The translations under genes were made by a program, and so were the position numbers. A DNA stretch of 64,000 nt from Mortierella sp. BCC40632 (Eukaryota; Mortierellomycota; Mortierellomycetes; Mortierellales; Mortierellaceae), in assembly GCA_011634665.1 (NCBI GenBank), contig WAEK01000010.1, positions 678,001-742,000 of the forward strand. The letters run 5' to 3'. Position 1 is the first letter of the stretch; each line of letters opens with the position of its first letter. Below are positions 7,530 to 58,100 of this stretch, one piece after another. The notes beneath the pieces were generated by a model. The model was not told the DNA's origin. It saw nothing but the letters and a program-made list of their open reading frames with translations, and did not search any database.

Positions 7530-10500
7530 ATGGTTGAGACTCCTCTCTCAACACCCTCTAAGCCAGAGGAAACCGTGGTTACTATTGAGCCTAGTACCAC
7601 AGCTAGCCAAGGGGTCAACACAGGCGACAGCCGCGACAAGTCGACCGACCAAGCCAGTCAAGAGGACTCCAAAGCCAACAGCAAGGCTACTTGGCTTGGT
7701 AATAGAGAGACAGTCTCCGTTGGTCCAGGCAACACATCCAACAAGAGTCTTCGCCAAGAGTCCTCTTCCTCCTCCTCTTCCTCCCCTTCCACCCCGACTC
7801 GGCTGGATACCATCCAGGAATGTGGCACCACAGGAGAAGCAATAGTCCAGCCTCATAGGCATCACAGGGACTCGAAAGAAAGTGACAATCCTCGATCGAC
7901 TCAATGTGCCAGCGAGAGACCAAAGATGCCACTATTCACAACCATTGAAGAATACGAGACCCAAATGCAAAAAGATCTTGCCACCCATACCCCTGGTATG
8001 AAATGCTAAGTGTTCCCCGAGACAAAGTCTTTTCCGAGTTCGACTTTTGCCTTGTAGAGGTCATGACAGAAATACTAACCCATACATAAAGACCATGATA
8101 ATCTGCGACTATTCTATCGTCGCTCACTTGATCTCTTTGATAATGCTTTTATTAACAAGCCAAGCAAGTAAGTGACCCAGGATGTATGTTTGGACTTGAT
8201 TCGCATTGGATCGCTTCTCACTCCAACCAAAAAACATTAACCTAAACGAGATTTATAGAGAGTATTTACCGCCCGTTCCGCTTGTGTGGGGCCTTGAGGT
8301 GATCTATGGTTAATTTTAAGTAAGTCGTTTTCGTATTATGAAACAGCAAGCTAAAAGGCCATGGTAGCGCGCTACCATTACAGCTTTGTAATGAAGAGAT
8401 AGATACTTCAGTACAGCCTGGAGAGGCATACTATCTGGTAATATGCTTCATGGTCGATAAGAAAGCCGAGGGTATCGACTGCTTGTCAATCAACGACCAG
8501 GTACGGTATACAAGAGAAAGTAACTTTTTTCCATGACCAAAGCCTATATCTCCTTCCTCAATTTAACAAGATTGTGTTCTTGGAGTAGAAGGTCAACTTA
8601 AGCTCTCTTGTCAAGGCAGGTGAGTAGAAATGAACAAAAGAGCTATCGTACCTTCCACTTGCTTTTAACCGGACCGTATTCTCCTCTAACGACTCTATCA
8701 TAACTACTTTGATAGAAGAGGTCTCCTTTATCAGAGTACTGCTACGATGTCATGTTACGCCGAAGGATAGACTTTACGTAAAACACAAAGACTCCTTGAA
8801 CCTAGGATCTCTACTGCTCTGCTATGTCGAGCTGAGCCAGAGCTCGCCAAGCGATGATTCGTATGGTATGTTGTTATGAATGTATTGGTTGGTCGATTCT
8901 ACAAGAGGAGAACGTTTGGAAGTCGTTTCCAGGAGTCTCTAATTATAAAAAGCTTGACTCGGCGATGCGGCGATAGACTGTATCTTTCCTAAGATACCTT
9001 CACCAGCAAGAGCATTCCACATTCGACATAGTCCTAGCGGGGACCCAAATGAATTACAGGTCCCGGTGACTATTCGGGAGGTCGCAATCTCGGCTTCAAG
9101 ATCTCACGCTGCAACCCTCTCATTAGTTGGGAACACGACATTCCTTGATCTCTGGGAGCTAGAGCCATCGGACACTGCCTCCAGAGCTACTTATCCGTAC
9201 CCTTATACAGTATCCAGTGCCTCCATTACTGACATCCATGACCCTCTCCCACTTTACGACATCAGACTGTCATTGTCGTGGGATGGATCTCAGATCACTC
9301 TTCACAGGGCACTCTGCTTACCACCGGGGAAGACATTTGTCTTCGAGCGTTCTGGAAATGCCCATCAACATCATCCTCAGGGTCAGCAAACGTCCCAACC
9401 TCTCCAACTCTCAAATCGTTACACTCATTGCTCCAAGCTACAGTCATTTAGTGGGGAAGCCATGTTCACCAATATCTCCACATCTCAATGGGGTAACGGG
9501 TCCGAAAGATTTGTGGCCTGCGACCAACAGGGGTTTAGTGTGTACAAGACCACAGGTCCATGGGAGATGCTCTACCACATTCCACTTCCGCTTTTATGTG
9601 ATATCCGAAAAAAGCATTGGTCGATAAGGCAAACAGGGATCACGTTTACGGCAACAGAAGGTACTTTTGTTTTGCTGATGTCACCTTTCCAAGTCTCCAT
9701 CTGGAATATAGCTACTGGAACACCAAAACACCTCATTGACACAACGAGTAGGATTACAGGTCTTTTCCTTTCTTCAACCGGAAAGACCTTAGTAATCGCC
9801 ACGGAGGGAACTCAACTCCTGTATTCAACAGTGTCTGGGGTTCTTTTCCAGAGGCTTTTTAAGACATCAAAGGTATGGAGTGGATACTTCCAAGCAAGCA
9901 AAGACGTTCCTGGCTTAAACCTAGACGATCTGCCATCCAACCGATTTATCGCATATCCAGGAGATATGTCTCAATCAAAGAGAGAAGCAATCCCCCTTGT
10001 TCAATCGGAGCTCACGATAGATGGATTCAATGTTGAAGAGAATTTGGATGCTGATACCGTCAAATCAACTATGGTGGTTTACAATCACGTATCAAGCTTT
10101 GAGGTGGCCTACCTGAAAGACTTTCCAGCGCGCCCTGAAGAAGAGCCTCAATGTAATGGTGAATGTGACTCAAATCTATTCGAAACTCCCGAGATCGTAT
10201 TAGAGGCGACGACACTCTATCCTGGAGGATCATTTGTGGTCCACGCTTCAGACTATTCGGATAGAGATGAGTGTCATTGGAGGAAACTAGTAATGGATAT
10301 CCAATTCGCCAATGGCGTCTCACGACGGTATTGTTGGATGGCATCCAAATGCTTTATCCATGAGGGGTCCTCTCAGCTTATGATGGTGAGAGAGATCGCA
10401 TTTGCATTAGAGTTCTCGATTTGGAGACTTCCACAGTCCTCACAAGAAGGGCTCAAACTACTTTATTGCTGGGGAGTAGACGATGTGGATAGAACGCTCA

Positions 10501-34180: not shown

Positions 34181-37100
34181 ATGGCTGCGAGTCCTCCCTT
34201 GACTTTCTCCAAACCAGAAGAAACCGTAGTCACAATCGAGCCCAAAGGTGACAGCCACAGCGAGATAACCGACCAGACCAACCAAAATGGTTCCAAAGTC
34301 AATAGTGACACCGTTGGAAATGATAAAAGGGACCAAGGAGTTGAGTGTCTAGATGTGAAAAGGGAAGCCTCTGTCGGCACAGAGGTAGCATCCAACACGA
34401 GCCTTCATGGGTGCTCCTCCCCTTCCACCTCGACTCAGTTGGATACCATCCGAGAATACAGTACCACAGGGGAAGCAATAGTTGAGTCTCACGAGCCTCA
34501 ATCTACCCAATATACCAACAAGAAAACAAAGACACCACCATTCACACATATCGAAGAATATGAGGCTCAGATGCTTAAAGATCTTGCCACCTCAGATCCC
34601 GGTATGTGGTGTGGAATATCCCCTGAGGCTATGCCTCTGTCGATAATGGATCTCTGCCTTACAGATGCCACTACAAAAATACTAACCAACATCTCAAGAC
34701 CGTGAACCTCATCGATTTTTCACCCCTCTATTATTTACTCGTTCGAATGAGCCTTATCTTGGAGAGCCAAGCAAGTAAGTATCGCAGGATGCGAGGCTTG
34801 GCCTGATTTGCATTGGATCACCACTCACCCCACCTATACCTTTACTTGAATGGGATTGATAGGGACTACTCGCCACCTCTTCCACTTGAGAGGGATGACT
34901 TTCGGGTAAGCTTTGACTAAACTCAAATGAGCTGACCATCTTCATTTCGCAAAACAAAAGGCTAAAGAATCATGATATCACACAACAACAGATTAGAGGT
35001 AGTGAGTATGACACTTTTATACAATCTGGTGTGCCATACTACTTGGTAATCTGCTTCATGATCGATCAAAGGGCTGAAGGTATCGACTACCTGTTAGTCG
35101 ACAAGAAGGTAAGGTGTACCTGAGAAAGCCACTCTGATAATGGTCAAAGTCAGTGTTTCGATCAGTAATTGAACGAAAACGGTTGTATTTCGGAGTAGAG
35201 GATCGATATAGGCCCTCTTATCAAGCCAGGTGAGTAGAAGTGAACAAAAAGAAGACTGCATCTATTGCTTGTTTGTAGTCTCGATTTATTCTGCTGTAGT
35301 CACTCTAACCTACCTTGATTGTCTTTGATAGAGGTCTCGTTTATTAGAGTGTTGTTTCGATACCAATATACACGTGCGGGTCCCTTTGTTGAACAAATTC
35401 ATAAAGACGATTCCAATCCAGGATTTCTAATGGCCTGCTATATAGAGCTGAGTCAAAATCCACCAAGTAGTGATTCGTATGGTATGTTAATTGACTCTAT
35501 AAGAGGATGACATCCACAACCCGTTTTCACGAGTCTCTAATCGAACATACTATAACTCTATGATGCGGCGATAGACTGCATCCTTCCTGAGATACCTTCG
35601 CCTGGGAGAGCATTTCACATTCAACACAGTCTCAGCGATGGCTCGAACGACCTGCAGACCCCAGCGACAATTCTGTCGGTCGCTATTTCATCTTCAAGAT
35701 CTCATGCTGCAACCATTTCACGGGTTGAAGATAAAATATTCCTTGATCTCTGGGATCTAGAGCTAGCAGAAACTACTTCTAGAGCAACTTATCCGTACCC
35801 TCGTTCAGTCTCAGCAGCTCAAACCATGCTCAGCGACGATTTGAATGATCTCAGCGAAATTGGACTATCATTGTCCTGGAATGGATCTCAAATTGTTATT
35901 TACAGGACATTTTCGTCACCTCCAGGGAGGATGCATGTCTTTGAGTACTCTGAAAATACCCATCCACAGCTTCAAGGCCAGCAAAAGTCCCAGTCACTCC
36001 AGTCCTCAAATTGTCATGCCCAATGCTCCAGTCTTCAGTCATTCAGTGGAGAGGTTCTGTTCACTAATACCTCTACTGAGATGTGGAGTGATAAATTCGG
36101 GAGACTCCTAGCGGGTGATCTACCAGGGGTTGGTGTGTACAAGGCAAAAAACCCATGGGTGATGCTCTGCTACATCTCAACTCTGTGGCCTCCAACTCAC
36201 ATCAGAGATGACTATTGGATGAAGCCAACATGGTCTACATTTGCTGCAGCTGCAGGTACACTTGTATTCAAGACGTCGCCTTTCCAAGTCTCAATTTGGG
36301 ATCTAGCCGCTGGAACGCCAAAACTTCTTATTGACACAAGGAGTAGGATTAGGGGTCTCTTCCTTTCATCAACCGGAAGGACTTTGATAATTGCCACGAA
36401 AGGGACTCAGCTCCTTTATTCTACAGTGTCTGGGGTTCTCTTTCAGAGACTTCACAAAACATCAGAGATATGGGGTGAGTCCTATGAGAGAGATAAAGAG
36501 ATTCCTGGCTTTTGTTTCGACAATCTGTCATCAGACCGATTTATCACATATCCAGGAGGCCTATCTCAGTCAAGGAGGGAGACCATTATCCTGGCACATT
36601 CGGAACTTATAAGACATGGCTTTGATGTTGAAGAAAAGCTGGATATCGACACTATCAAGCCAACTATAGTGGTACACAGGCATGGATCGAACTTTGAGTT
36701 GACTTTTCTGGAGGATTTACCGAAACACCCTGAGCCCGAACCCCAATGCAATCCTGAGTGCGATTCAAATCTTCGTGAGATCCCTGAGATTTTATTTAAG
36801 GAAAAAAAATCCTATCTTGGGGGCTCATTCGTGATCAATCCAACGGGTTTGGAGGAAGGGTATGCGCTCCAGGTATTAATGGATCTCCAACTCAACGATG
36901 GCAGCTCACGACAGTATTATTGGATGGCAACCAAGTGCTATATCAATGAAGGATCTTCTCGACTCATAGTAATGAGAGAGGGTCACAAATCACTGGTACT
37001 CTCAGTCTGGGGGCTTCCACAGTCACCACAAGAGGAGCTCGTACTACTCTATTGCAGGAGAGGAGGTAAAATCAATCAAGGGCTCAGGCGGAGTACATGC

Positions 37101-40100
37101 TCACATGGAGGTAATCAGACTTTCGGTAACCACGACAGAGACATTGATCGGATGTTTCGATATGGCTCCTTTGCGCCGAATTGGTCTGCACGAATGGAGG
37201 TCGAGTCACTGTTCCACATGTTATGCAGACTGTATTTGGATGGCAAGCAAGAGTGCCCTACGGTTCTAGAAGCAAAGTTCAAGTATCTCCGCTCTTTTGT
37301 AAACTACTGCCCCTTCCCTGACGATTCTTCAGTGTCTTTGATATCAGAGTTGTGCAGGTGGTGGGAAATACGCGACCACAACCGAGTGAAACAAATCTTG
37401 AATAGGCTACTCCATGAGGACTCTGCCAGCCCTGGTATTAACTGGGTTCCTTTGAGAAAATACTTGGGAGAATCCAACCCTGTTGGAATCATCCTTGGAA
37501 AGGCCAAGAAGGATCCAACAGCAATGGAGATAGCTCGAATCCTCATTGCCTATTGTCTCAAGAAAGCAAAAGAGTCAGATGACATTGCCTACATCCTATG
37601 CTTGGTCGAGTGTGTGGATCAGCTTACTGCCAGATATGCAGATCTAGCTCTCCGCGTCACCAGAGGGTTTGCGTATATTCGATATCACGCCCGAAAGTTG
37701 ATTATCGAAAATCACAAGGTTATTCATCCTCCAACAATCCGTATGTTCTGGACTCCGAACCACCGCAAGATCTACGAGTGTCGGAATCCGATCCTCCAAC
37801 TACACCTTGTCGATCAAGAGCCTGATCCACTCAACGACAACTTCACAGAAGATGTGTTTGTTGCTCCTGTCAGTCTCCTCTGGTCATTCATTCCAAAAGA
37901 TCAGTCTTCGTGTAATGAAATACCACTTGGTGTCACAAATCAATGTACCACATGGATCCAAGCCCTCTACCACAGCATCCTGTTCAACATGACCCCATTC
38001 AGTCATGTCTATATTCGACCTCGCTTTTACAGTCTTGAGATTCTTGACAATCCCGCCATGGAAGCAGTGATCCAGTACAAGTGGTATGTTTCAATGACTA
38101 TCATGCTATCCCTTGTATTGGACGGTCAGTTGCAATTGACCGAATGACCTGTTGTCCTGACATCTTCGAGACTTGCTCTATTCTAGGAACACATATGTGT
38201 ATGCGATATGGATGGTTCGATTTGCGATTCAATGCATCTATGCTCTCCTCATTCTGAGCTGTGCTCTGATGCAAGTCTACCACCGAGAGAAGGGTCCACT
38301 TCTCGGAGTGTTCTCCGCCATTATTTTCCTCTCGTGTATATTCCTCTGGCTCGAGTTCCTTCAATTGCGAGAGAGTCAGTATTACGTTCGATCGGAGGCA
38401 AAAAAGGAAGGAGAAAGAGGAAAAGAACTACAAGAGATTCAGAGATCTCGATCTCCATACTTCAGGTACATTGGAGGAAACTGAAGACTGAAGTCATTGT
38501 TAACTCTATCGGCCAGCAGTACACAAAGATGGAACCATCTCACCCAATACTCAATGCGGTCCAATCTTGTGATAGGTCTCCTTACAACCTTCTGGATCTG
38601 GCTACATACTTCTACCCTCTTGCGACAAGTGTCCACCAGATCATCAACATCACGAACGATGATCCAGATGCTGTGACAGCCGACTTTAGTTTCAGTGTAT
38701 TGCTCGTGTTCCTGAACCTGGTATGTGTATGATGACCAATTGGCATCCAAGTATTCGGATTATGCATCAGGCCCGCGAATCTGGTTTGACCGAGCATCTG
38801 ACAGTCTCTTCAACTACTCCATAGCTGGCTGAGCTCCGAGTGAGTGAGACAGTTTGCAAGTACATCACCATTGTGTTTGGAATCCTCCGTGAGATCAAGG
38901 TGTTCTTCCTGGTGCTTGCGACAAGTATGATCTTCTTCACCATTGCCATTGTCCATGTCACCAATGGAGGTGTGAATAACTTGGAGGAAGCCAGAGCTAG
39001 TTTCCCAAATAACTTTCTTGGAGCCTTCACAACTGTGTACCTGATGATGGTAAGATGCCAGTACCCTTTTGCTCATACCTTGGCTTGCAGCTTAGTGAAC
39101 TGTTGGTTGGCGGATCAAACCCCTGAACTAGCAATATCCTCACTTCTAACTATCGTTTGGATTCCTGACTATAGGGAGGACGATACGATCCCCTGAACAA
39201 CGACATGTACCAAGACGGTGAAGGAGATAAACAGGGTACACACAAGAATGGAGCTCTCCTAGCGATGCTGATGGTGTACTTTACATTTTCATCTATCCTG
39301 ATGCTCAATGTGTTAATTGGTGAGTCAAACTGGAAGTGCGGAGCAAACTCTCTGTCGCTGTGTTTGGTAGTTCTGAATGGCGTTCCCACAGAACATGAAA
39401 CAACCTAGTTGACTAATCGACTCTGGTGACTGTGTTTGCATCCCACGATAGCTCTGATTAACAGTGCCTTTGTCAAGGCTGACGACTCTTGGCGACAGGT
39501 GTGGCTCGAGAACAGACTTCGATATGTCGAGAGTGCCGAAAACATGTCGTATCACATCCCTGGTAAGTGGCTCATATTTCTTTCAGGTTTGATCATAGTT
39601 AATATTCGGCTCTTTAACGCTCTTTGCATTCCACTGTTCTATCCACATGTTGAAGGTTTCCGTGAGACATTTGACTGGTTCCCCAGTACGATCTATTACA
39701 CAGCGACGCCTTACCAAGTGCAACAGTATTGGCGGAGGATTGCCAAGAAAGACGAGGAGATTATATTTGATGACGAGGCAACCACTAACGGGTCATCGGA
39801 GCTAATGCTTGATAAGGATGACGGAAAGGCACCTGAGCAGGTATTGTTGACGCCAAGAAACATCGAACTTGAAGGAGAAGTGAGCAAACAGAATCGAACT
39901 CTGGTGAACGGACTCGATGATATCAAGGAACGGTTCGATGGCCTTGGAAAGGGTATGTCAGCGGATGTCTCTGGACTGAGAGGAACCACTGAGACACTAC
40001 ACAAGGAGATATCAGTACTCCGAGCTGACAGCATTAAGTTGAACCATGGCATTTCACAACTACAGGCTGATAACACAGGTTTGAGCAAAGGCATGTTAGA

Positions 40101-40191
40101 ACTAAGGGAGGGACTACTTGAGATGAAACGCGATATGAACACTATTCTTAGCGCCCTGCAGCAGCTTCAGGCGCGAGGACAGAACGATTAA
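34181..40191 (+). CDS. Beta-propeller TRP-like cation channel, copy 6 (intact)
   Basis: Exons: 34181-34601, 34699-34774, 34863-34905, 34992-35108, 35199-35229, 35332-35481, 35575-38083, 38187-38465, 38576-38720, 38825-39049, 39175-39319, 39452-39562, 39656-40191; about 1,595 residues, all in phase. The start context is TTCAATGG. Exon 7 is open from its acceptor at 35574 although the first Met in it is not until 35826, so a gene model starting there would be truncated. The propeller has a CNPEC pair before REIPEI. This copy has the shortest S2-S3 loop among the intact copies. The S5-pore linker is 12 residues shorter than in copies 1, 2 and 5 and ends in NNFLGAFTTVYLMM; the turret after the filter is more polar (GEGDKQGTHKN). 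Two AATAAA signals follow the stop, near 40205 and 40282. Confidence 0.88.
38825..39565 (+). repeat. Near-identical tract shared with copy 7 (48747-49487), introns included
   Basis: Exons 10-12 and introns 10-11 of copies 6 and 7 are almost identical; intron 10 shows no difference by eye and intron 11 only two or so. Intron 9 before it and intron 12 after it do not match. This points to a recent conversion event of about 740 bp. Confidence 0.88.
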
Positions 40192-41571
40192 AAAACCTTG
40201 ATAAAATAAATGACTGAGTACATTGGTTCGGGTATGTCAAAGACTTATTCTATCAAGAGATAAACCTCATCCTACACAAACATGAATAAATGAGATGGCA
40301 GAGTAAATTATTTGCATTTGGGATCTACCGGGTACTCATTCACATCAGGATTTCGAAGAACGAGGTCGACCACGGCGTGCAAATGAGAGTGTTGGATATA
40401 GAAGATAGTTAGCAAGCATCAGTCCAAAAGGCGACCGACTCATAGGAGCAATCTTTGCTGGCTCTATTCTTCTTCAGTGCATCCAGTCCTTTGTTCCCCG
40501 GTCGGTATTGGTGTTATCACTTTTTACTGCTCTTCATAAGCTGCACCAACTCTTATCGTTTCACCTCTAACGTGATCAACAATGGGAGCACCACCGAGAG
40601 AAGCGTTTCATATGCATTCTAGTCAAATCGGTAGAGGTTCTTCCGAGAGCCTTTCCAAGTAGAGTACCAAGATCCTTGCTATCTCAGTCTATTTGGTTTG
40701 CTGAAGCAGGAACAGTTGTAACAGGGGGTTTTAGCCTTTTACCTCTCGTTTTTATCTGTATTCTCCGATAAGATGTAAAAGCCTTAGATATGTGGTAAAG
40801 AATCAAACCACTTGTAAGAGTATCAGCGTCAAAAGCAGGAGTGGTACAAGATATTTTCCTGCGCAAAGCGTTGAAGTGAAATGACGAACAAATCCAATCA
40901 CATGAAGGGTTCATGCTTATCAAGTAAGGTCTTTGTCAGCATGATTACCTATGTCTTTATAGGGATGGTGGCAAATTTTCTTCTTTTATCCTTCTCACCC
41001 TGGGTGATCTCTTTTATCCTACTTTTAGCCTGTCTCATTTGACCAAGTTGGTAGGCCTATGCCACAGCCACACAGAAGCAATCCCTCCGCTCTAACTGTT
41101 CCTCCGAGTACTCACTGGGAGCTTTGGGCACCACTAACACTACCAAGTACTGATCCTTTTGTTGAAGTGTAGAGGAAATGTCGCTCTGTAAAAAAATGAG
41201 ATGTAGAGGAGAGGGGGGAGAGGGTAGAAGGAGCATGAGGTTAATATGCAACTCGATTACCCAGCAAGGACTCGACAGGGAGTTTGGTCTATTCTATCCT
41301 AGGGGCAATAGGTATAATGTGTGAGCCTAGACCTGAAGAGGCACTTTTTGCTCAACTCGAATGGAATGATATAGGGTGAACCCCTGGAAGACAGACTCAG
41401 AGTCTTCTGCTCTGTTGGTGAAGCGGATGTCGAGAGCAACGAACATTGATGATACTGTGGGCGGATCATCACACCTTTCCATCACTGCTAGAACAGATCA
41501 ACAAAAACAGTGGAAGGACTGGCTTCAGCACGCTTTGTCTGCTCATTTGCCAGAAAGGTTAGTATGGTGGC

Positions 41572-41573
<2 letters not shown>

Positions 41574-41603
<30 letters not shown>
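41574..41603. repeat. Poly(T)30 tract
   Basis: An uninterrupted T run in the region between copy 6 and the tube-like gene. Confidence 0.95.
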
Positions 41604-41604
<1 letters not shown>

Positions 41605-42129
41605 GAATCTGACACCTTCAACAAGAGCCATCTTTTGATGTAAGCCCCTCAGCTTCTAGTCGCTATTGATAGTTCAGTACTCAGAAGGAGGAGGACACCT
41701 TGCCTCGCCACTCTAGTCTGGACCATTCACATTACTCGCCATCAACTATAGAACATGGAGGGAGAGACGGCGCCCTCGACTCAGAATACTTGGCAAGCCT
41801 ATGCCATTTTCTTCACCTTCATATACGCTATCCTTTTCAAAGTAGTAGCTCTGTGGCCATTCATTGTGTCCACCTTGAACCGAGATGCCTTTAATATAGG
41901 AAAACCTTGCGCCAAGTGCCAAAAAGGGATCAAATCCGCTTGAAATCGGATAATAGGCTACAGCCCTTATTGGCCTTCGGCCATGCTGGCCACACACACT
42001 CCATTCATGCAGAAATACTCCTCACACACCCTCCATTCATGCAGAGGCGCTTTTGTGCGTTCCATTTTTTCACACGCACCACCCATTTTCCTAGTGCACC
42101 CTTGTTTTCTCACACCCTTTCTCTAACGC

Positions 42130-42137
42130 TTATAAAT
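42130..42137 (+). promoter_or_regulatory. TATA-like box of the tube-like gene
   Basis: TTATAAAT lies about 150 bp before the ATG at 42288. This is a plausible spacing for a fungal TATA box plus a 5' leader of about 100 nt. Confidence 0.5.
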
Positions 42138-42287
42138 GCCACCATTTTCTTACAAGCGCACGCCCTCCCCCCCCCCCAACACTTTCAAACAGCATTATTA
42201 TTCCTTACGCTTGGTGCCCATATCAATCCCTCTCTCTGAATACACGGACTAACTCCTTCAACAAATACCACTCCCAGAGTATCCAAA

Positions 42288-42707
42288 ATGGCTACAACGG
42301 CTGATCAGATTGCTAGCTCGTACCCTATCCCCACTTATCGCTTTATTGTCTCACTCGGCGAGGAAAAGATGAATTTTAATGCGGCCAGCGGTTTGGAGTT
42401 GGGTGTCGAGACGAACGAGAAGCCAGGCCAGGGACAACCACTCCAAATTTGCCTTAAACGAGGGGTCGTCAAGGAACAGAAGCACCTTTATAGTTGGATT
42501 AACTCGATCTCACTCAACCAGGTGGAAAAGAAAGACATTTCCATCAGTTTGACAAATGATACAGGAAGCGAGCTTTTGATAACCTGGAGCATCAGTAATG
42601 CCTTCCCTACCAAGTTGACCGCACCCTCCTACGATGCCTCCAGTAATGAAGTCGCAATCGAAGAGTTGTCTCTAGTGGCGGATAAGATAACTGTGGAGTT
42701 TCATTAA
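42288..42707 (+). CDS. Contractile-injection-system / phage tail inner tube protein (gp19, Afp1/Pvc1 type)
   Basis: A single exon of 139 residues. The start ADQIASSYPIPTYRFIVSLG, the central LNQVEKKDISISL and the end region AFPTKLTAPSYDASSNEVAI are signature stretches of the tail-tube family (Pfam Phage_T4_gp19), and specifically of the Afp1/Pvc1 tubes of bacterial extracellular contractile injection systems. In bacteria such proteins stack as hexameric rings to form the tube that the sheath drives into a target cell. Residues 36-52 look shorter than I remember for bacterial members, so a loop may be lost. No signal peptide or membrane segment. The ATG sits in a strong eukaryotic context (CCAAAATGGC), a TATA box precedes it and AATAAA signals follow, so it looks like a fungal gene, not a stray bacterial fragment. 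No sheath, baseplate, spike or ATPase gene is present. Function in the fungus is unknown. Confidence 0.88.
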   Translation: MATTADQIASSYPIPTYRFIVSLGEEKMNFNAASGLELGVETNEKPGQGQPLQICLKRGVVKEQKHLYSWINSISLNQVEKKDISISLTNDTGSELLITWSISNAFPTKLTAPSYDASSNEVAIEELSLVADKITVEFH

Positions 42708-42815
42708 GTTACAGTAGGCTCTGGGAGACAGAATATTCGACAAACCACCACCAACATCGACACCGCACAGACCAGTCGCACTACTGTAGGCTGAGTCAAC
42801 ATCTTGAGCCTCTTA

Positions 42816-42826
42816 AATAAAATAAA
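42816..42826 (+). terminator. Tandem AATAAA polyadenylation signals after the tube-like gene
   Basis: Two overlapping AATAAA hexamers at 42816-42821 and 42821-42826, about 110 nt after the stop codon. Confidence 0.6.
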
Positions 42827-43949
42827 ACCTCAGCAAGTAGAGCCGACATCGAGGGATCAAAAAGCAGCATAACAATGAGTGAATTACCCCTTGACTGCCA
42901 CAAACCAGTTATCACTGATTGCTGTTGCTGACACCGATCAGCCCTCATCCTCAACGAATGCCCATCACATCTCCTCTCTCTCTCTTTCTCTCCTTTCTTT
43001 CCCTCTCCACCCTTCTACAACCTCGGATACTCCTCTTCACTTCCTCCTAATCTCTCTTTCTCATATCCCCTCTTCTCTATCCCCTCCCTCTCTTTTACTG
43101 TCTCCCCTCTCCACCTATCCACTCATCTTTATCATATCCTGACTCTCTATCACGTCCTGTCTCTGCACTCGCTTCATCGCTCTCTCCTTCTCCGGATACA
43201 TCAAACGCGTGGCTGTCACAAGCCCTCCTCTCCATCTCCCCTATATACATCATGTACTCTATCAGCCGGTTGTTCCCCACTCTTACCCCTCACATTTCTC
43301 CACCTCCTACCAATTGCAAACTAAACCATCCTCGCCATCCTCCTGTCTGTCACTGTCTTGTCGTTATCCTCCCTCCGCCTTGTTGATATCCCTCCTTTGC
43401 TCTGGATGAGAGAATGGGCCAACACCGAAGGATGCAACTCCCATCCTAACCCCTCAATACTAGTGCTCACTTAAAATGGGAAGGAGAGTCTTGTCAGCCT
43501 CGCTGTGCGACCAACAGATCAACAGTCTCAGCCCTGTCACTGCGGTAGATGTTACAGCTGCACTTACTTCGACAACTACCAATGGTCCATCTCACTCAAA
43601 CAAGAGATTCATGTTCCTGCCTCAGTCGAAATTGCGTGTGGCATTAAGGATAGAGAGGGCGAGAATGATTAGATCTTATTCCTGGAAATGGGTAGTGTAC
43701 ATTGCCTCCATGGTTCATGAGGCATCAGCATTCCCCCTTGTGCGGGCAGTGGAATCCATCGAATGAGAAAAGTGGCGAGAGAAAGCATGGAACAGGATTA
43801 AGTTTTTTTTAGGTGGTACTAGGACAGAAAAAGCTGTGCCTTCGAGATCGTGGGACTTGAAAGCTGATCCACTCCTCCATTCAAAGCCGTTGCTTCATCT
43901 CCATCTTCATCCTTGCATTACCTCTTCTTGACCCTCATCAGGACCCTCC
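42827..43949. other. Region between tube-like gene and copy 7, with a pyrimidine-rich tract
   Basis: Bases 42960-43150 and, more weakly, up to 43410 are C/T-rich on the plus strand (many CTCTCT and TCCC runs). Open frames through it (42879-43142 and 43209-43409) are compositional. The frame 43476-43766 has no recognisable domain. The usual upstream block of the family is not clear here. Confidence 0.6.
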
Positions 43950-44952
43950 ATGACTGCAACTCCTCCCCCAGCACTCTCCAAGCCGGAGGCAACGGTAGTC
44001 ACTGTCGAGTGTACGCCACCAGAGCCTTCCAAGAGTCAGGAGACGCGTGGAGGTTCTTTTCACCAAGCAGTCAGCACAGAAAACACCCTCAACAAGCCAG
44101 TCAACCAAGCCAGTCAAGACAGTGATAGCAGAGATAAGGCAATTAAAAATCTAGACATTGGTGAACAAGTCGCTGTCGGAGCAGAAGGCGTGTCTACAAC
44201 GAGCTTTCAGCAGGACCCCTCATCCACCTCTTCCATGTCCACTCAGTTGGATACCATCCATGAGTATAACAGCACAGTGAGAATGGTAATCGAGGATAAA
44301 GGATCTCAAGGCAGCCAAATCAGCGAACCACATGCAAATCATTGGACCGATAGGAGCACATGGACTAGACCTTTCGTATCCTTTGACTAGTATGAGGCTC
44401 AGATGCTGAAAGATCTCGACACTCGCTCTTCAGGTAGCTGATACAGGGCCCTCCTGGACAGAGCCTTTCCCACGTCGGTCGCTTCTCTTCAAGTTTCAAT
44501 GTGTAAGCGCTGACCAAAATTTAAAGATCATGATACTGTTAGACTTTTCTTTACTCGATCACCCTTCGATGCTGACGATGCCCCCGATTTTGATGGGTCA
44601 ACCAAGTAAGCAGCGTCAGACTCTGTTAGAATGGACATTTGTTTACATTAGCTTACAACTCACCCCGGCTGTTTTTTATTCATACGGGCATGATAGGAGT
44701 TATGCAAAGCCTATCCCGATTTCGAGGAAATTTTCCCTGGTATGTTGGAGCAGACTACTGAGCCTATTTTATCCAAATTGAGATTCATCTTTAAACTGAC
44801 AGACCAAGGCGTCCTCATACAATAGCTTCACGCTACAAACGCCGATGCTTTGTTGCGGTCTGGACAACTCTACTACTTGACAGTATGCTTTTTGCTCAAC
44901 CATGAAGTCGAGGGAATCAAAGATATTTTCCTTAATCAGCAGGTATGATGTG

Positions 44953-48400: not shown

Positions 48401-50191
48401 CGGGTAGCGGTGTACAACGAAAATGAACGTATGAACAAAACGCTCAGTCATCTTCAATCCTTTACTAGGTCTCCGTATAACCTGTTAGATCTGTTCGCTT
48501 ACTTCTATCCACTCATGACAAGTGTCCACCAAATCATCAACACTCTGCACGCAGAAGATGGCGTGGATAATGGTGAAATAACAGCCGACTTTAGTTTCTG
48601 TCTCGTATTTGTGTTTCTCCATCTGGTATGCAAATCAGGGACCATTGGGTGAAAAAGAGGCAATTGAACTACCAGTAAATGAGCGATATCATTTATATGC
48701 TTTAACCACACCTCTAACGAAATTTCATACAAACTACTCCCTATAGCTGGCTGAGCTCCGAGTGAGTGAGACAGTTTGCAAGTACATCACCATTGTGTTT
48801 GGAATCCTCCGTGAGATCAAGGTGTTCTTCCTGGTGCTTGCGACAAGTATGATCTTCTTCACCATTGCCATTGTCCATGTCACCAATGGAGGTGTGAATA
48901 ACTTGGAGGAAGCCAGAGCTAGTTTCCCAAATAACTTTCTTGGAGCCTTCACAACTGTGTACCTGATGATGGTAAGATGCCAGTACCCTTTTGCTCATAC
49001 CTTGGCTTGCAGCTTAGTGAACTGTTGGTTGGCGGATCAAACCCCTGAACTAGCAATATCCTCACTTCTAACTATCGTTTGGATTCCTGACTATAGGGAG
49101 GACGATACGATCCCCTGAACAACGACATGTACCAAGACGGTGAAGGAGATAAACAGGGTACACACAAGAATGGAGCTCTCCTAGCGATGCTGATGGTGTA
49201 CTTTACATTCTCATCGATCCTGATGCTCAATGTGTTGATTGGTGAGTCAAACTGGAAGTGCGGAGCAAACTCTCTGTCGCTGTGTTTGGTAGTTCTGAAT
49301 GGCGCTCCCACAGAACATGAAACGACCTAGTTGACTAATCGACTCTGGTGACTGTGTTTGCATCCCACGATAGCTCTGATCAACAGTGCCTTTGTCAAGG
49401 CTGACGACTCTTGGCGACAGGTGTGGCTCGAGAACAGACTTCGATATGTCGAGAGTGCCGAAAACATGTCGTATCACATCCCTGGTGAGTGCCTATTCTT
49501 CTTTTGCAATCCAAGTTTCTTGTTATTGAAAGTCCATGATGTCACAGAAATTACCGAGGCCATCAGCACATCCCATTTAACTCAAACATGTTAATGAACT
49601 ATTGATCCACTGGGGTTCCAAGGTTTCCGCGAAACATTTGACTGGTTCCCTGACATGGTCTACTACACAGCAACGCCTTATCAGGTGCAGCAGTACTGGT
49701 GGCGAGTAGCAAAGAAAGATGAAGAAATTATCTTTGACGACGAAGCAACTAATGAGTCTTCTGAGCCCACGAATGCTGAGCATGATGTGGTAGGCACTGA
49801 GCTGACAGTGTTGGCGACAAATGCCGCCGTAGGGCCAGAGGGAGAGCTGAGCAAACAGAACCAGACTCTAGTGGAAGGAATATCCGAGATCAAGGAACAG
49901 TTCAATCAGCAGGAACAGCGATTTGACAATCTCAGGATGAGAATGTCGGCGGAATACCAAAAGTCTATTGAAAGGTCGTAGGCGGGTGTTTCTGAGCTAA
50001 GAGAAACGTCAGAGAGTCTACAGAAGGATATTTCAGATCTTCGGTCCGACAACATCAAGCTGAACGAAGGCATGTCAGAGCTGAATGTGAATGTGTCAGA
50101 ACTAAGAGAGGGGCTGTTTGAGCTGAAACGTGATATGCATGCCATTCTCGGGGTCTTGCAGCAGCTCCAAGCGCGAGGACATAGCATTTAA

Positions 50192-50796: not shown

Positions 50797-51991
50797 TTTG
50801 ACAAACCCCGACAATAACGTTAGGCACACTCCTGCTGCTGAGGATTCCTCGGATTCCTCAGGGGAGAGAAGGAGGGAGAGAAAGTTTAAAAAAGACAGAC
50901 ATGAGGGATCAAGGGTCCGTTGGATTCAAAACCAAATGGACTCTTTGCTTCGCTCTAAGAGAGAGACATGGCATTGCTCCACTAGAGGATCTCATTTCCA
51001 TTCCAAATGTCTCTCTTCTCCTTCCTACCTCTCTCACCATCTCCATGCTTAATTATGGAGCTAGACAGCCGCCTTTGCATCGAAATCAACAAAAGCGAGC
51101 ATGAAGAGCTGGGCTCTGAAAGCTCGTGGTTGTGCCTCGGACAAAGGAATGGAGAGAGAGGAGGACAGAGATTGATGTATAGTTTGTCGAGTGTGCCAAC
51201 TCTTCTTTTTTGTTTTCCTTCTCTCATTGCTCTTTCATCAATCGGCTCACCACCCCTCCTAATCAGCATTGCCACATCTCTCGATTCTCATCAGAAGGAG
51301 TCGCCATGGCAACAACTCCTCCTCTCCAGAGACTCGCCAGACCAGAAGTAACCGTGGTCGCTGTCGAGCCAGAGCCGCCGTCTATTTCAAATCATGATCA
51401 CTGGGATGGTATTGACATCCAGAGCAACCACAAAGATCACATCCAAGAGGGCCCAACGGTTCAGCTCGGGGCGGCTAGCCAAGGTAGCAATGACCAAGCT
51501 CATTTCATCGAGTACCTGAAAGACAGCGAATCGAACTACGCTTATCCTGGAACCCAAGGCGATATGGACTCCCTCCATCATCAACGTCTCGCCTCTGTTG
51601 CGTCTTTGAACTCTGTCATTTCTCTCAAAGAGAGTGACTCTAGAGTGAAGACTGAGCTCGAGACTCGCAGCGAAACAGAGAACAAGATGAGCGAGCTGTG
51701 GGAAAGTCAAAGCATCGAAAGTGACCGGAGAGCTCCAGCCTTCATGTCCATGGAGGACTATGAGGCTCAGATGTTGGAAGATCTTGAAAATGGCCTCCCT
51801 GGTATGTAGCACAGCAATATGCTTTCATCAGTGATGTACCTTTGCTAGGGTGTTCATTCGGTAATAGCAAGAAGACTATGCAGCTCACCAACATGGACCG
51901 TTAGATCCAAATTCTGTTAGGCTGTTCTATGAAGAGATCGGGGCTGACTTATATGATACAACGTATTTTCGAGGGTCAAGTGAGTAAGTGG
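50797..51991 (+). repeat. Duplicated 5' channel module, first copy
   Basis: About 1.2 kb covering promoter, exon 1, intron 1 and exon 2, nearly identical to 53932-55129. Both copies contain the small repeat GGATTCCTCGGATTCCTCAG near their left ends. The match ends just after GTAAGTGGT at the start of intron 2. Confidence 0.92.
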
Positions 51992-52247
51992 TGCCTTATG
52001 TACGCTCATAAAAGGGTCTTGGTGCTCACTACTGGTGGAATTGATGTCCGTCTTACTCCGGAGAGAGCATTTGCACCAGAGAATGCAGAGGCGTTTTTCT
52101 ATGCCATGTTTGGGATGATTGGCAACTGCCTCGCTAGATGTCAAGAAGTGTTGGATGCTCAGTCCCGGTATCTGCGCTCTTTCTTCCATTTCTATCCTTG
52201 CCCATACGACAAGACACTCTCAGTAATATCGATGGTGTGTGGATTCT
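51306..52247 (+). pseudogene. Truncated TRP-like channel, copy 8 (5' module fused to exon 7 scrap)
   Basis: Exon 1 (51306-51801, MATTPP start) and exon 2 (51905-51983) are intact and nearly equal to those of copy 9. Right after the exon 2 donor the sequence jumps, at about 51992-51998, to text matching 57416-57673 of copy 9, the end of the propeller in exon 7, so everything between was lost or never copied. That scrap lacks 8 bp at a short direct repeat (GCTCATGTGCTCATG in copy 9). Its homology ends at about 52247, followed by a poly(T) run. No S1-S6 sequence remains. If transcribed, the product could only be the N-terminal low-complexity region and a short tail. Confidence 0.88.
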
Positions 52248-53931: not shown

Positions 53932-55129
53932 TTTGACAAACCCCGACAAACAATGTCAGGCACACTCCCGAGGATTCCTCGGATTCCTCAGGGGAGAGGA
54001 GGGAGAGAGAGAGAAAGTTTAAAAAGACAGACATGAGGGATCAGAGGTCTGCTGGATTCAAATTCAAAACCAAATGGACTCTTTGCTACGCTCCAAGAGA
54101 GAGGCATGGCGTTGCTCCACCAGAGGATCTCATTTCCATTCCAAATGTCTCTCCTCTCCTCCCTCCTTCTCTCACCATCTCCATGCTTGATTATGAAGCT
54201 AGACAGCCGCCTCTGCATCGAAATCAACAAAGGCGAGCATGAAGAGCTGGGCTCTGAAAGCTCGTGGTTGTGCCTCGGACAAAGGAATGGAGAGAGAGGA
54301 GGACGGAGATTGATGTATAGTTTGTCGAGTGTGCCAACTCTTCTTTTTTGTTTTCCTTCTCTCATTGCTCTTTCATCAATCGGCTCACCACCCCTCCTAA
54401 TCAGCATTGCCACATCTCTCGATTCTCATCAGAAGGAGTCGCCATGGCAACAACTCCTCCTCTCCAGAGACTCGCCAGACCAGAAGTAACCGTGGTCGCT
54501 GTCGAGCCAGAGCCGCCGTCTATTTCAAATCATGATCACTGGGATGGTATTGACATCCAGAGCAACCACAAAGATCACATCCAAGAGGGCCCAACGGTTC
54601 AGCTCGGGGCGGCTAGCCAAGGTAGCAATGACCAAGCTCATTTCATCGAGTACCTGAAAGACAGCGAATCGAACTACGCTTATCCTGGAACCCAAGGCGA
54701 CATGGATCCCCTCTATCATCAACGCCTCGCCTCTGTTGCGTCTTTGAACTCTGTCATTTCTCTCAAAGAGAGCGACTCTAGAGTAAAGACTGAACTCGAG
54801 ACTCGCAGCGAAACAGAGAACAAGATGAGCGAGCTGTGTGAAAGTCAAAGCATCGAAAGTGACCGGAGAGCTCCAGCCTTCATGTCCATGGAGGACTATG
54901 AGGCTCAGATGTTGGAAGATCTTGAAAATGGCCTCCCTGGTATGTAGCACAGCAATATGCTTTCATCAGTGATGTACCTTTGCTAGGGTGTTCATTCGGT
55001 AATAGCAAGAAGACTATGCAGCTCACCAACATGGACCGTTAGATCCAAATTCTGTTAGGCTGTTCTATGAAGAGATCGGGGCTGACTTGTATGATACAAC
55101 GTATTTTCGAGGGTCAAGTGAGTAAGTGG
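53932..55129 (+). repeat. Duplicated 5' channel module, second copy
   Basis: Partner of 50797-51991. It carries the promoter, exon 1 and exon 2 of copy 9 and continues into the full gene. A few substitutions and small indels separate the two copies, so the duplication is recent. Confidence 0.92.
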
Positions 55130-58100
55130 TACATCGTCTGTCTATGAAATGCTACCGTCGTCCTCAAGCATTTCTAAGGGGACTAACCTTAAACCTGACC
55201 TGCATTGACTGGTAGGAGATATTCAAAGCCAGTCCAGATTAGGAATGGTGGAAGAACCTCAGTAGGTCAATCCAAATCTCAATTGAGCTTCCTAGGGTTG
55301 ATTCCAATGTTTACATCGAGACTAAGGAGTCATTATCTTGCATTCGGATAGCTCGAGCCTGAGGACCCCTCAATGATGGATGAGAACCTCAACTATGCCG
55401 TCTTGTGCTTTATGCTTGACCAGGATGAGGACAGTACCCTGTATCTGGGCGTCGAAGATGGAGTAAGTCCTAATTTCTACGGCTGCCTCTTCCGCCTCTT
55501 GTATCAAAGTCCACTCTTCTAACAATCATGCTTGTAAGTAGTATATTTTGAAACTGAATATCCCACTCCGCCATGTCCACAATGTTGGTAAGTTTGTAAA
55601 AGAAAGATGGTGTTCGAGTGTCAACAGTTTTTTGCTAGCATATTCTTATGCATCTTTATCCAATGCCGACACCACTAGATGGAAGGGTTTCTTTCGTTAG
55701 AACATTGTTAAGACAACAAGTTAAATCGACAATCACATTTAAAGAACATCGCAAAGACAGTGTGAATCCAGGGTCTGCACTACTTTGTTATGTCGAGTGG
55801 AGTCGGACTCTTCCAAAAGAGGATTCATATGGTACGCGATCTGTTGTTGAGAACCAAATTCAATGGTGTAACCCCCAAAAGAGCCTGGATGATTCTAACC
55901 CAATCTGGTAGACTGCATCCTCTCTCAGGCGCCTCTCCCCAGAAAAGTGTTCAGTGTCTGGCACAGCACGGACGAGTCGGATGTCACTCCAATGCCAGCC
56001 AAGATTTTGCAAACCGATATTTCTGCACAGGGGCTCTATGCTGCCACGCTTTCATCAATCAGAGACACACTCTTCCTTGCTCTCTGGAAACTAGATCTAG
56101 AAAGTGAGCCGTTGACTCGACCATACCAAAATCCGGTTTCAACGCCCATTGCACAATCTGAAGTCGACACTCGTGGTGAAAGCGTCCTCGGTTTTTCAGT
56201 AACCATGTCATGGGATGGATCACAGATTGCTGTTTATAGGGTCGAGTCTATGTATTTCCCTGGAGAAGTTGCTCTTTTCAATAACATCCAGGATGTCGAC
56301 CATCATCAATCCCAGGAGAAAAAAACGACAGCTTTGCTCCAGTCTTCAGCTCAACACAGTCAATGTACCAAACTCCAGTCTTTCAAAGGAAACGCCAAGT
56401 TCACCATTGCCTTTACGGAAACAGCAGAATGGAACGACAATTCTGAGCTATTCATCGCATGTGGCTGGGAGGGATTCAGTGTATTCAAGACTTCGGGCCA
56501 GTGGGAGATGCTTTACCACATTCCTCTCACACGATACCAATACCAGTTGACAAACTACTCCACTCAGACATCGACATCGATTGCCAGTGGCATCCTTTCG
56601 GTAACAATGTCCCCTTACCAAGTCTGTGTTTGGGATGTGGCCTCAGGCGAACTACTCTCACACCTTGACACCACACAGGAGATCAGAAGGCACTTTCTCT
56701 CTTCAACAGGAGAGACTGTAGCGATTGTCACGAAGTCAATATTGTTTTTGTACTCAGCCAAGACTGGTGACCTTCTTCAGCGGTCTCATAGTCTATACGA
56801 ATCAGGCTCTGAATTTATAGAAGGGAACCGAAGTGTTTGCTGTTATCAATCCGACTCTCTGGAGAGATATTATCTAATCGCTGACACGAGCAGCATGTGT
56901 TCCCAGAGAAAAGTCACACTGCTGTCTTATACTAGAAACTATGCTCTGCACGATATCAAACTCAGGAACGAGTGGGACGGAGCCGATGTCAAGTCTACTT
57001 TGTTCACACATCAATATGGATCGACCCTCGAGGTATCCTATCTGGAAGATATTGTTGCCAGTGTGGACGGGACAGCACCATGCACTTCTGACTGTGACCT
57101 GGATCTTACCGAGATACCAGAAATTAGAGAGAACACAGAAGTGCACTTCTCTGGAGGGGAATATGCGATTCAAGTTAGTATCGCTGCCGCTATGTCTAAA
57201 TTGACGATCGACATTCACTTCAAGGATGGCAAATCACGGCAGTATTGGTGGGATGGAAGCAATTTTTTTATCCTCGAAAAGCAATCCTTGCTAGTGATGA
57301 TGGAGGTTTTTGAAAGCAGACAGTATTCTTGGGTCTGGAAACTACCACAGTCGTCCCAAGAGGAACTCGAGCTTTTACTTGCCTGGGCTCAGGAAAGTGA
57401 CGAAGAAGTAGCTCGTGTACGCTCATGTGCTCATGAAAGGGTCTTGGTGCTCACTACTGGTGGAATTGATATCCGTCTTACTCCGGAGAGAGCATTTGCA
57501 CCAGAGAATGCAGAGGCGTTTTTCTATGCCATGTTTGGGATGATTGGCAATTGCCTCGCTAGATGTCAAGAAGTGTTGGATGCTCAGTCCCGGTATCTGC
57601 GCTCCTTCTTCAATTTCTACCCTTGCCCATACGACAAGACGCTCTCAGTGATATCGATGGTGTGCGGATTCTGGGAAAAGTCCATTCATTTCAGGGTCAA
57701 ACCACTCTTGAAGAAGGCACTTCAGTTGAGCGCACCAAACAATTGGGTGCCTCTGGAAGTCTATCCAAAGGGATCCAACCCGGTCTGGATCATGCTCGAG
57801 AAAGCCAAGGAGGAACCGGCTGCAATGGAATTGGTGCGAATATTTGTCGAGTACTGTTTCGAAAAGGCAAAAGCAACCAAAGATGTCATCTACATCATGC
57901 ACCTACTTGATTGCATGGATATGCTAACAGACAACCATGCAGACCTGGCCTTCCAAATCACAAGAGAATTCGCCTTTGTTCGAAATCATGATCGACAATT
58001 TATCATGGATAACCACAGAATTGCACACCCTCCTGCGATCCGTCGGTTCTGGACTCCTAACAACACCAAGATCTACGAATGTCGGAATCCTATCCTTCAG

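Follow-up and report, generated by a model that had tools for sequence, protein, structure and literature searches.

Injection systems of the eCIS type are regarded as prokaryotic devices, and several of them target eukaryotic cells. The closest described counterparts of the protein reported here (P0001) are Pvc1, the tube protein of the Photorhabdus virulence cassette, and Afp1, that of the Serratia antifeeding prophage. P0001 resembles both over its full length, in the N-terminal segment and in the C-terminal half, but it lacks 10 residues of the β2-β3 loop and is encoded alone, in a genome that has no matches to the sheath, gp25, and CIS_tube families. The eCIS tubes of Mycetohabitans are also similar, as three copies of one genome are 58–69% identical to P0001, whereas they possess the full loop, have GC3 values of 0.58–0.73 (three measured) compared with 0.56 for P0001, and form a separate group in the tree. 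Proteins of Linnemannia elongata, L. zychae, and Podila clonocystis share with P0001 a tube domain in Mortierellaceae, but these proteins with a signal-like start have a longer N-terminus, keep the loop (P0086 is two residues short), and lie on another branch than P0001. Two further proteins, P0122 and P0123, are fungal, and P0122 carries PF06841, yet P0122 is only approximately 35% identical to P0001. Hcp rings of type VI secretion belong to the same fold class as P0001 according to Foldseek, while Hcp was absent among the 14 sequence matches of P0001. Hcp acts as separate cargo-carrying rings.

No description of fungal tube genes was encountered among the papers listed, as judged by titles and abstract openings in a collection from which most subscription journals and all preprints are missing. 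PMC11291939, which in 2024 surveyed 44 early fungi for transfers, does not use "phage", "tube", or "injection" in its main text as far as available, and tube genes in fungi are absent from the accessible parts of PMC10598620, PMC8213781, and PMC12696581. Databases already contain such genes, one of which is annotated by name. The present case amounts to a known family that was transferred between kingdoms and whose architecture and setting are new.

A tube gene inside a fungal tandem array

P0001 is encoded in the window, by which we mean the whole 64,000-nucleotide stretch of Mortierella sp. BCC40632 DNA that was analyzed. The gene and its nearby signals are as follows.

42288..42707, + strand: tube-protein gene P0001, Afp1/Pvc1 type, a single unbroken frame of 139 codons plus stop
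42131..42136, + strand: TATAAA, 157 bases 5' of the start codon
42816..42821, + strand: AATAAA, 109 bases 3' of the stop codon

This frame is exactly the one claimed by an earlier sequence-only reading, and the stretches quoted there as signatures (SYPIPTYRFIV, LNQVEKKDISISL, and AFPTKLTAPSYDASSNEVA) are all present in the P0001 translation. The assignment to the tube family was borne out by the profile search, in which both PF06841 (Phage_T4_gp19; 91.5 bits, cut-off 28.2, E 5.2e-26) and TIGR02241 (88.6 bits, cut-off 62.4, E 3.2e-25) exceeded the curated cut-offs. The sequence search, which gave 14 matches, identified Pvc1 as the closest solved relative (E 7.5e-48), and Afp1 was detected at E 7.4e-47. 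The family match of P0001 is hence far above chance level. P0001 stayed below the cut-off of the NCBIfam CIS5 equivalog (45.3 bits versus 260), and the CIS1 equivalog was absent from its matches up to E 10. The TATA box and the AATAAA signal exist as had been claimed, but their support is modest because chance alone places TATAWA in 3.1% and AATAAA in 6.8% of 300-base stretches drawn at random from the window (5000 draws each).

The genome assembly comprises 49.9 Mb in 62 contigs and contains chitin synthases, and the window lies inside a contig of 2.12 Mb. Most of the window (882–64000) is taken up by a large intron-containing gene in some eight or nine tandem copies, whose first exons were located near 7530, 16847, 25974, 34181, 43950, 51306, 54444, and 61811. 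Self-comparison of the window defined the immediate surroundings of the tube gene.

35826..40191, + strand: main and later exons of the upstream array member, whose homologous blocks stop near 40181
40182..43949, no strand: inter-copy gap of 3.8 kb that contains the tube gene
43950..44390, + strand: first exon of the downstream array member, 28–35% identical to the first exons at 7530, 16847, 25974, 34181, and 61811

According to our own reading of the block ends, the six other gaps measure roughly 1.1–2.9 kb, so that the gap with the tube gene is the longest in the array, as would be expected for an insertion. At E 1e-8, blastn did not match the gap to any other part of the window, which is a weak point because the adjoining diverged first exon was also without a match. 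None of the array ORFs scanned exceeded a Pfam cut-off, and the two scanned against NCBIfam gave no match; a similarity to Ion_trans at 48762–49118 (E 0.018) remained under the cut-off, and propeller domains were likewise sub-threshold. The flanks are two copies of a eukaryotic intron-containing family, as had been proposed, but the designation of this family as a channel finds little backing in the sub-cut-off Ion_trans match. Two side observations were made on the array. The segments 50797–51992 and 53932–55130 are 95.9% identical and represent a recent segmental duplication, and the 98.3% identity between 38812–39583 and 48732–49504 suggests gene conversion between members.

Partner genes were searched for throughout the genome with two sheath families (PF04984 and PF17482), gp25 (PF04965), and CIS_tube (PF19266), and zero matches were obtained. 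As controls for PF19266, 14 control genomes were silent and Mycetohabitans was positive at four places. When the genome was searched with P0001 itself, three places were detected, namely P0001 and one each on contigs C11 and C4.

C11:1159021-1159467 (positions 1378-1827 of locus L002): second intact tube protein, P0122, 149 residues, PF06841 52.6 bits
C4:1856615-1856833, − strand (locus L003): decayed copy of the tube gene, with a stop and breaks in the frame

The claim of a lone tube with no other injection-system gene nearby thus extends to the whole genome for the families tested, but it has to be amended by two more tube copies. P0122 is strongly diverged from P0001, and it shows 70% identity over 81% of its length to P0123 of Lunasporangiospora selenospora (Mortierellaceae), besides which it has no relative at E 1e-3. 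It is flanked on both sides by ORFs judged by eye to be fungal (9.9-kb stretch). A predicted model of P0122 (mean pLDDT 78.0) has Pvc-type tubes as its top matches, with a loose fit (E 1.8e-5, TM 0.51). P0122 probably represents an older fungal branch of the tube family. The C4 copy was missed by the PF06841 search of the genome and, by eye, appears to be short at the β2-β3 loop too.

Scoring of 5 of 657 first-look candidates gave four matches to bacterial-type SSU (16S), all on other contigs. They look mitochondrial, because their GC content is about 30% and their score is about half of what we take to be the figure expected for bacterial 16S. The possibility of a contaminant contig was rejected on the basis of the 2.12-Mb contig, the array flanks, and the AT-rich mitochondrial type of the scored SSU (5 of 657 candidates). 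The bacterium-to-fungus transfer put forward earlier is well supported by this contig, by its eukaryotic flanks, by the mitochondrial type of the SSU scored, and by the absence of matches to the four partner families tested. Transfer into the fungal nuclear genome has almost certainly taken place.

Relatives in fungi and bacteria

A search of 5.8 billion proteins with P0001 gave 283 candidates, 269 of them at E 1e-3, and the best 120 of these were used. The top relatives among these 120 were the unannotated proteins P0002–P0004, which are 70–73% identical to P0001, and many of its nearest named relatives are bacterial. At least seven named proteins from this search and two others were fungal: P0010 of Haplosporangium bisporale, P0086 of Linnemannia zychae, P0100 of Podila clonocystis, P0128 and P0136 of L. 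elongata, P0087 of Penicillium taxi, and P0123 of Lunasporangiospora selenospora. One fungal database entry is even titled "T4-like virus tail tube protein gp19-domain-containing protein [Linnemannia elongata]". The statement that the family is known only from phages and prokaryotes consequently does not hold. In P0086, P0100, P0128, P0136, and the unlabelled P0094 and P0124, the N-terminus is approximately 20–28 residues longer, with an 11-residue mean hydropathy of 3.0–3.6 and small residues ahead of the tube domain. This extension is a putative signal peptide. P0128 is located on a contig of 1.29 Mb, P0136 (L. elongata AG-77) on one of 374 kb, and P0087 on one of 5.06 Mb, while P0010, P0086, and P0100 are on contigs of 2–7 kb. 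P0010, which has no signal segment, could be an endobacterial contaminant because its contig is that small; this applies less easily to P0128, P0136, and P0087. The Penicillium protein, a tube protein of 147 residues in an ascomycete, is apparently a further independent transfer.

On the bacterial side, 53 of 398 genomes of the Mycetohabitans family contained some tube relative, with at best 69% identity to P0001, and across 79 bacterial loci the identity to P0002 reached 74%. The closest named bacterial matches of P0100 were from Mycetohabitans (78–80%). At two of the tube loci of Mycetohabitans, genes for sheath, CIS_tube, baseplate-V, and gp25 come after the tube gene. On a 3.6-kb contig of Mycetohabitans endofungorum (L021), the tube gene lies amid transposase-like ORFs (by eye) and the operon is apparently absent there. 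This locus may represent a mobile version of the tube gene in a bacterium that lives inside fungi. No phage relative of P0001 was present among 50,697 INPHARED records at E 1e-5. IMG/VR contained relatives on 35 contigs, 60–73% identical to P0002, and in one of these loci (L087) the tube gene is followed by large ORFs that resemble sheath genes by eye. Because of these viral contigs, a phage origin of P0001, as the tail gene of a prophage remnant, may be entertained despite the INPHARED result.

The main tree was constructed from 48 of 175 proteins trimmed so as to begin at the YP motif, with P0122 and P0123 left out as too diverged. P0001 grouped with P0002–P0005 (96/86) and then with P0010 (92/84, not starred). 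The six rows with a signal-like start were within a 19-row branch (82/93, not starred) together with tubes of Mycetohabitans, Burkholderia, and Serratia. For the clade tests, the unlabelled P0094 and P0124 were counted as fungal by their N-terminus. A single clade of the nine fungal-type rows was rejected (p-AU 1.5e-6), as was one in which P0001 and P0010 joined the six rows with a signal-like start, Penicillium excluded (p-AU 1.4e-4). The fungal label needs 5 changes on the main tree, 2 of which are forced by starred branches, and 0% of 200 bootstrap trees unite the fungi; on a quick tree of 109 rows it needs 4 changes, with 1 forced by starred branches. A sister relation between P0001 and the Haplosporangium protein was compatible with the AU test (p 0.205). 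A clade of the six signal-bearing rows had a support of 84 in the quick tree and was absent from the best main tree, without being rejected there (p-AU 0.615). Related fungi hence seem to have acquired tube genes separately. The terminal branch of P0001 was 0.32, compared with 0.028 for P0002.

The β2-β3 loop and constraint on the sequence

The most distinctive feature of P0001 is an in-frame deletion of 30 bases.

42417..42422, + strand: site of a 10-residue deletion in the β2-β3 (inter-ring) loop, at the E44-K45 junction, where relatives are approximately 10 residues longer

In the alignment, the number of residues between two leucines was 29 in 54 of 57 rows, 27 in P0086 and P0087, and 19 in P0001. 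A pattern-based count covering 171 of the 175 proteins gave 29 for 165 of them, 27 for two, 25 for P0052, and 19 for P0001; the value for P0052, which is outside the 57-row alignment, comes from this count alone, and values of 12 for P0112 and P0136 are pattern errors, as the alignment gives 29 for both. No second protein among these 171, which were drawn from the best 120 per list, carries the same deletion. In the predicted model of P0001, the strands 26–34 and 52–62 enclose the site, and it was placed in the β2-β3 loop for this reason; the confidence is lowest at 40–48. This model, of middling confidence overall (mean pLDDT 72.6), keeps the tube sandwich, and its first structure match by Foldseek was Pvc1 (E 1.1e-11, TM 0.63/0.60), on which it superposes loosely (rmsd 7.5). 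Retention of the tube fold is held with very high confidence.

According to the available part of a tail-tube review (PMC8718954), T5 forms no tubes once the loop is deleted, tubes of SPP1 fail to grow, and the deletion in YSD1 yields hexameric rings. These experiments concern siphophage-type tubes, which are other than those of eCIS. Since the stacking loop is shortened in P0001, rings rather than tubes are predicted for it by analogy with the phage deletions, and we consider it somewhat more likely than not that a ring would be formed instead of a tube. The suggestion of "ring or tube assemblies" is thereby narrowed, such that rings or monomers are favored and stacked tubes are disfavored on the basis of the short loop (19 versus 29).

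It is very improbable that P0001 works in the fungus as a stacked tube or filament. The remainder of the protein is conserved, which speaks for such a function, but its inter-ring loop region has 19 residues instead of 29, and the genome has no matches to sheath, gp25, or CIS_tube.

Constraint on the sequence was evaluated by comparing P0001 with P0002, from which it differs in 3 of 48 conserved columns and in 27 of 91 variable ones (p 0.0011). This test spans the whole P0001 branch, any bacterial period included, and the skew thus indicates constraint on the whole branch, not specifically after the transfer. The deletion removes 4 of 52 conserved columns, which counts against constraint. Seven other fungal-type rows, each compared with a relative that was bacterial or unlabelled, exhibited a similar skew (p 4.7e-8 to 0.0047), which was weaker for P0122 compared with P0123 (10 of 47 conserved and 31 of 77 variable columns, p 0.032); P0122 differs from P0002 in 24 of 50 conserved columns. 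The dS between P0001 and the bacterial genes compared (4 of 4) was saturated, making the dN/dS value unusable. The codon use of P0001 was nearer to six array exons (0.005) than to three Mycetohabitans genes (−0.18), and its GC3 of 0.56 compares with 0.47–0.52 for the array exons and 0.36–0.73 for seven tubes from bacterial and viral contigs. In terms of base composition, adaptation to the host is indistinguishable from descent from an AT-rich donor. On balance, we lean slightly toward a gene that is still under selection. The notion that the transferred gene was then adapted is plausible for P0001, and it is better supported in the relatives with a signal-peptide-like N-terminus.

Retention, decay, or inheritance, and a possible role

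The explanation that we prefer, by a cautious judgement, is a transfer followed by retention of a gene that no longer forms tubes. An eCIS inner-tube gene would have entered the nuclear genome of a fungus that is probably a Mortierellomycete, where two members of the tandem array now flank it. P0001 would have lost ring stacking, as the alignment and the phage analogy suggest, so that its product would be one tube subunit that assembles into a hexameric ring at most. The gene may be expressed, for which the TATA and poly-A signals provide modest hints.

The main rival is a neutral, decaying relic, that is, a bacterial tube gene that inserted where an intergenic gap tolerated it, had 30 bases deleted, and is so far still free of stops. 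We regard it as possible, though with some doubt. The long terminal branch of P0001 (0.32) fits decay as well as adaptation, a part of the key loop and four conserved columns are gone, the deletion is unmatched among the 171 measured of 175 relatives, and the sister copy on C4 did decay. However, the P0001 frame is intact across 139 codons, its changes avoid conserved columns (3/48 versus 27/91), and TATA and AATAAA are located at plausible distances. The codon use nearer to that of the array exons than to that of Mycetohabitans also speaks against a relic, although a gene from an AT-rich donor would look alike.

A somewhat unlikely alternative is an old fungal family, in which the transfer occurred into a Mortierellaceae ancestor, P0002–P0005 are fungal, and P0001 was inherited vertically and lost the loop late. 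It is otherwise compatible with the preferred explanation. P0001, P0010, and P0002–P0005 do fall in one group (92/84, not starred), two of P0002–P0004 are on contigs of 2.6–3.0 Mb, a size suiting fungi, and the best bacterial matches reach only 69% for P0001 (398 genomes of the Mycetohabitans family) and 74% for P0002 (79 loci). A size of 2.6–3.0 Mb, however, also suits chromosomes of endohyphal bacteria, such as that of Mycoavidus B1-EB, for which 2,653,566 bases are given in the accessible part of PMC5877345, and P0002 is almost without branch length, as in a possible bacterial donor lineage.

A bacterial read or contig misjoined into the fungal assembly is hardly credible, for although many of the nearest named relatives are bacterial and the fungal entries P0010, P0086, and P0100 are on 2–7-kb contigs, P0001 is inside a 2.12-Mb contig with array members on both sides, the scored SSU matches (5 of 657 candidates) are without bacterial make-up, relatives are on contigs of 1.29 Mb, 374 kb (L. 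elongata), and 5.06 Mb (Penicillium taxi), and the P0001 deletion is absent from every bacterial protein measured.

Returning to a transferred and retained gene, its role can be addressed by conjecture. A ring in the fungal cytosol might bind injected cargo in its lumen or interfere with foreign tubes, a conjecture that we hold weakly. The version in which assembly is blocked is weakened, because a cytosolic ring cannot reach tubes that are built within the bacterium. The relatives with a signal-peptide-like start might do likewise outside the cell, where they would meet the particles. According to the available part of PMC11297309, Mycetohabitans rhizoxinica, an endosymbiont of fungi, has a toxin associated with eCIS that is toxic to yeast, which makes fungi plausible targets of eCIS. 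A counter-injection role of P0001 against eCIS-using bacteria is nevertheless quite unlikely. The wider proposal, that Mortierellaceae repeatedly captured tube subunits and turned them into stand-alone proteins, namely a cytosolic, loop-trimmed ring former (P0001) and secreted forms with a signal peptide, which would serve as decoys, cargo traps, or tools against eCIS bacteria, is also unlikely, if a little less so.

The occurrence of fungal tube subunits on separate branches, with a signal-like start or a shortened loop, suggests a eukaryotic counter-use of the parts of injection machines. P0001 allows a direct test of the action of a tube protein without its machine.
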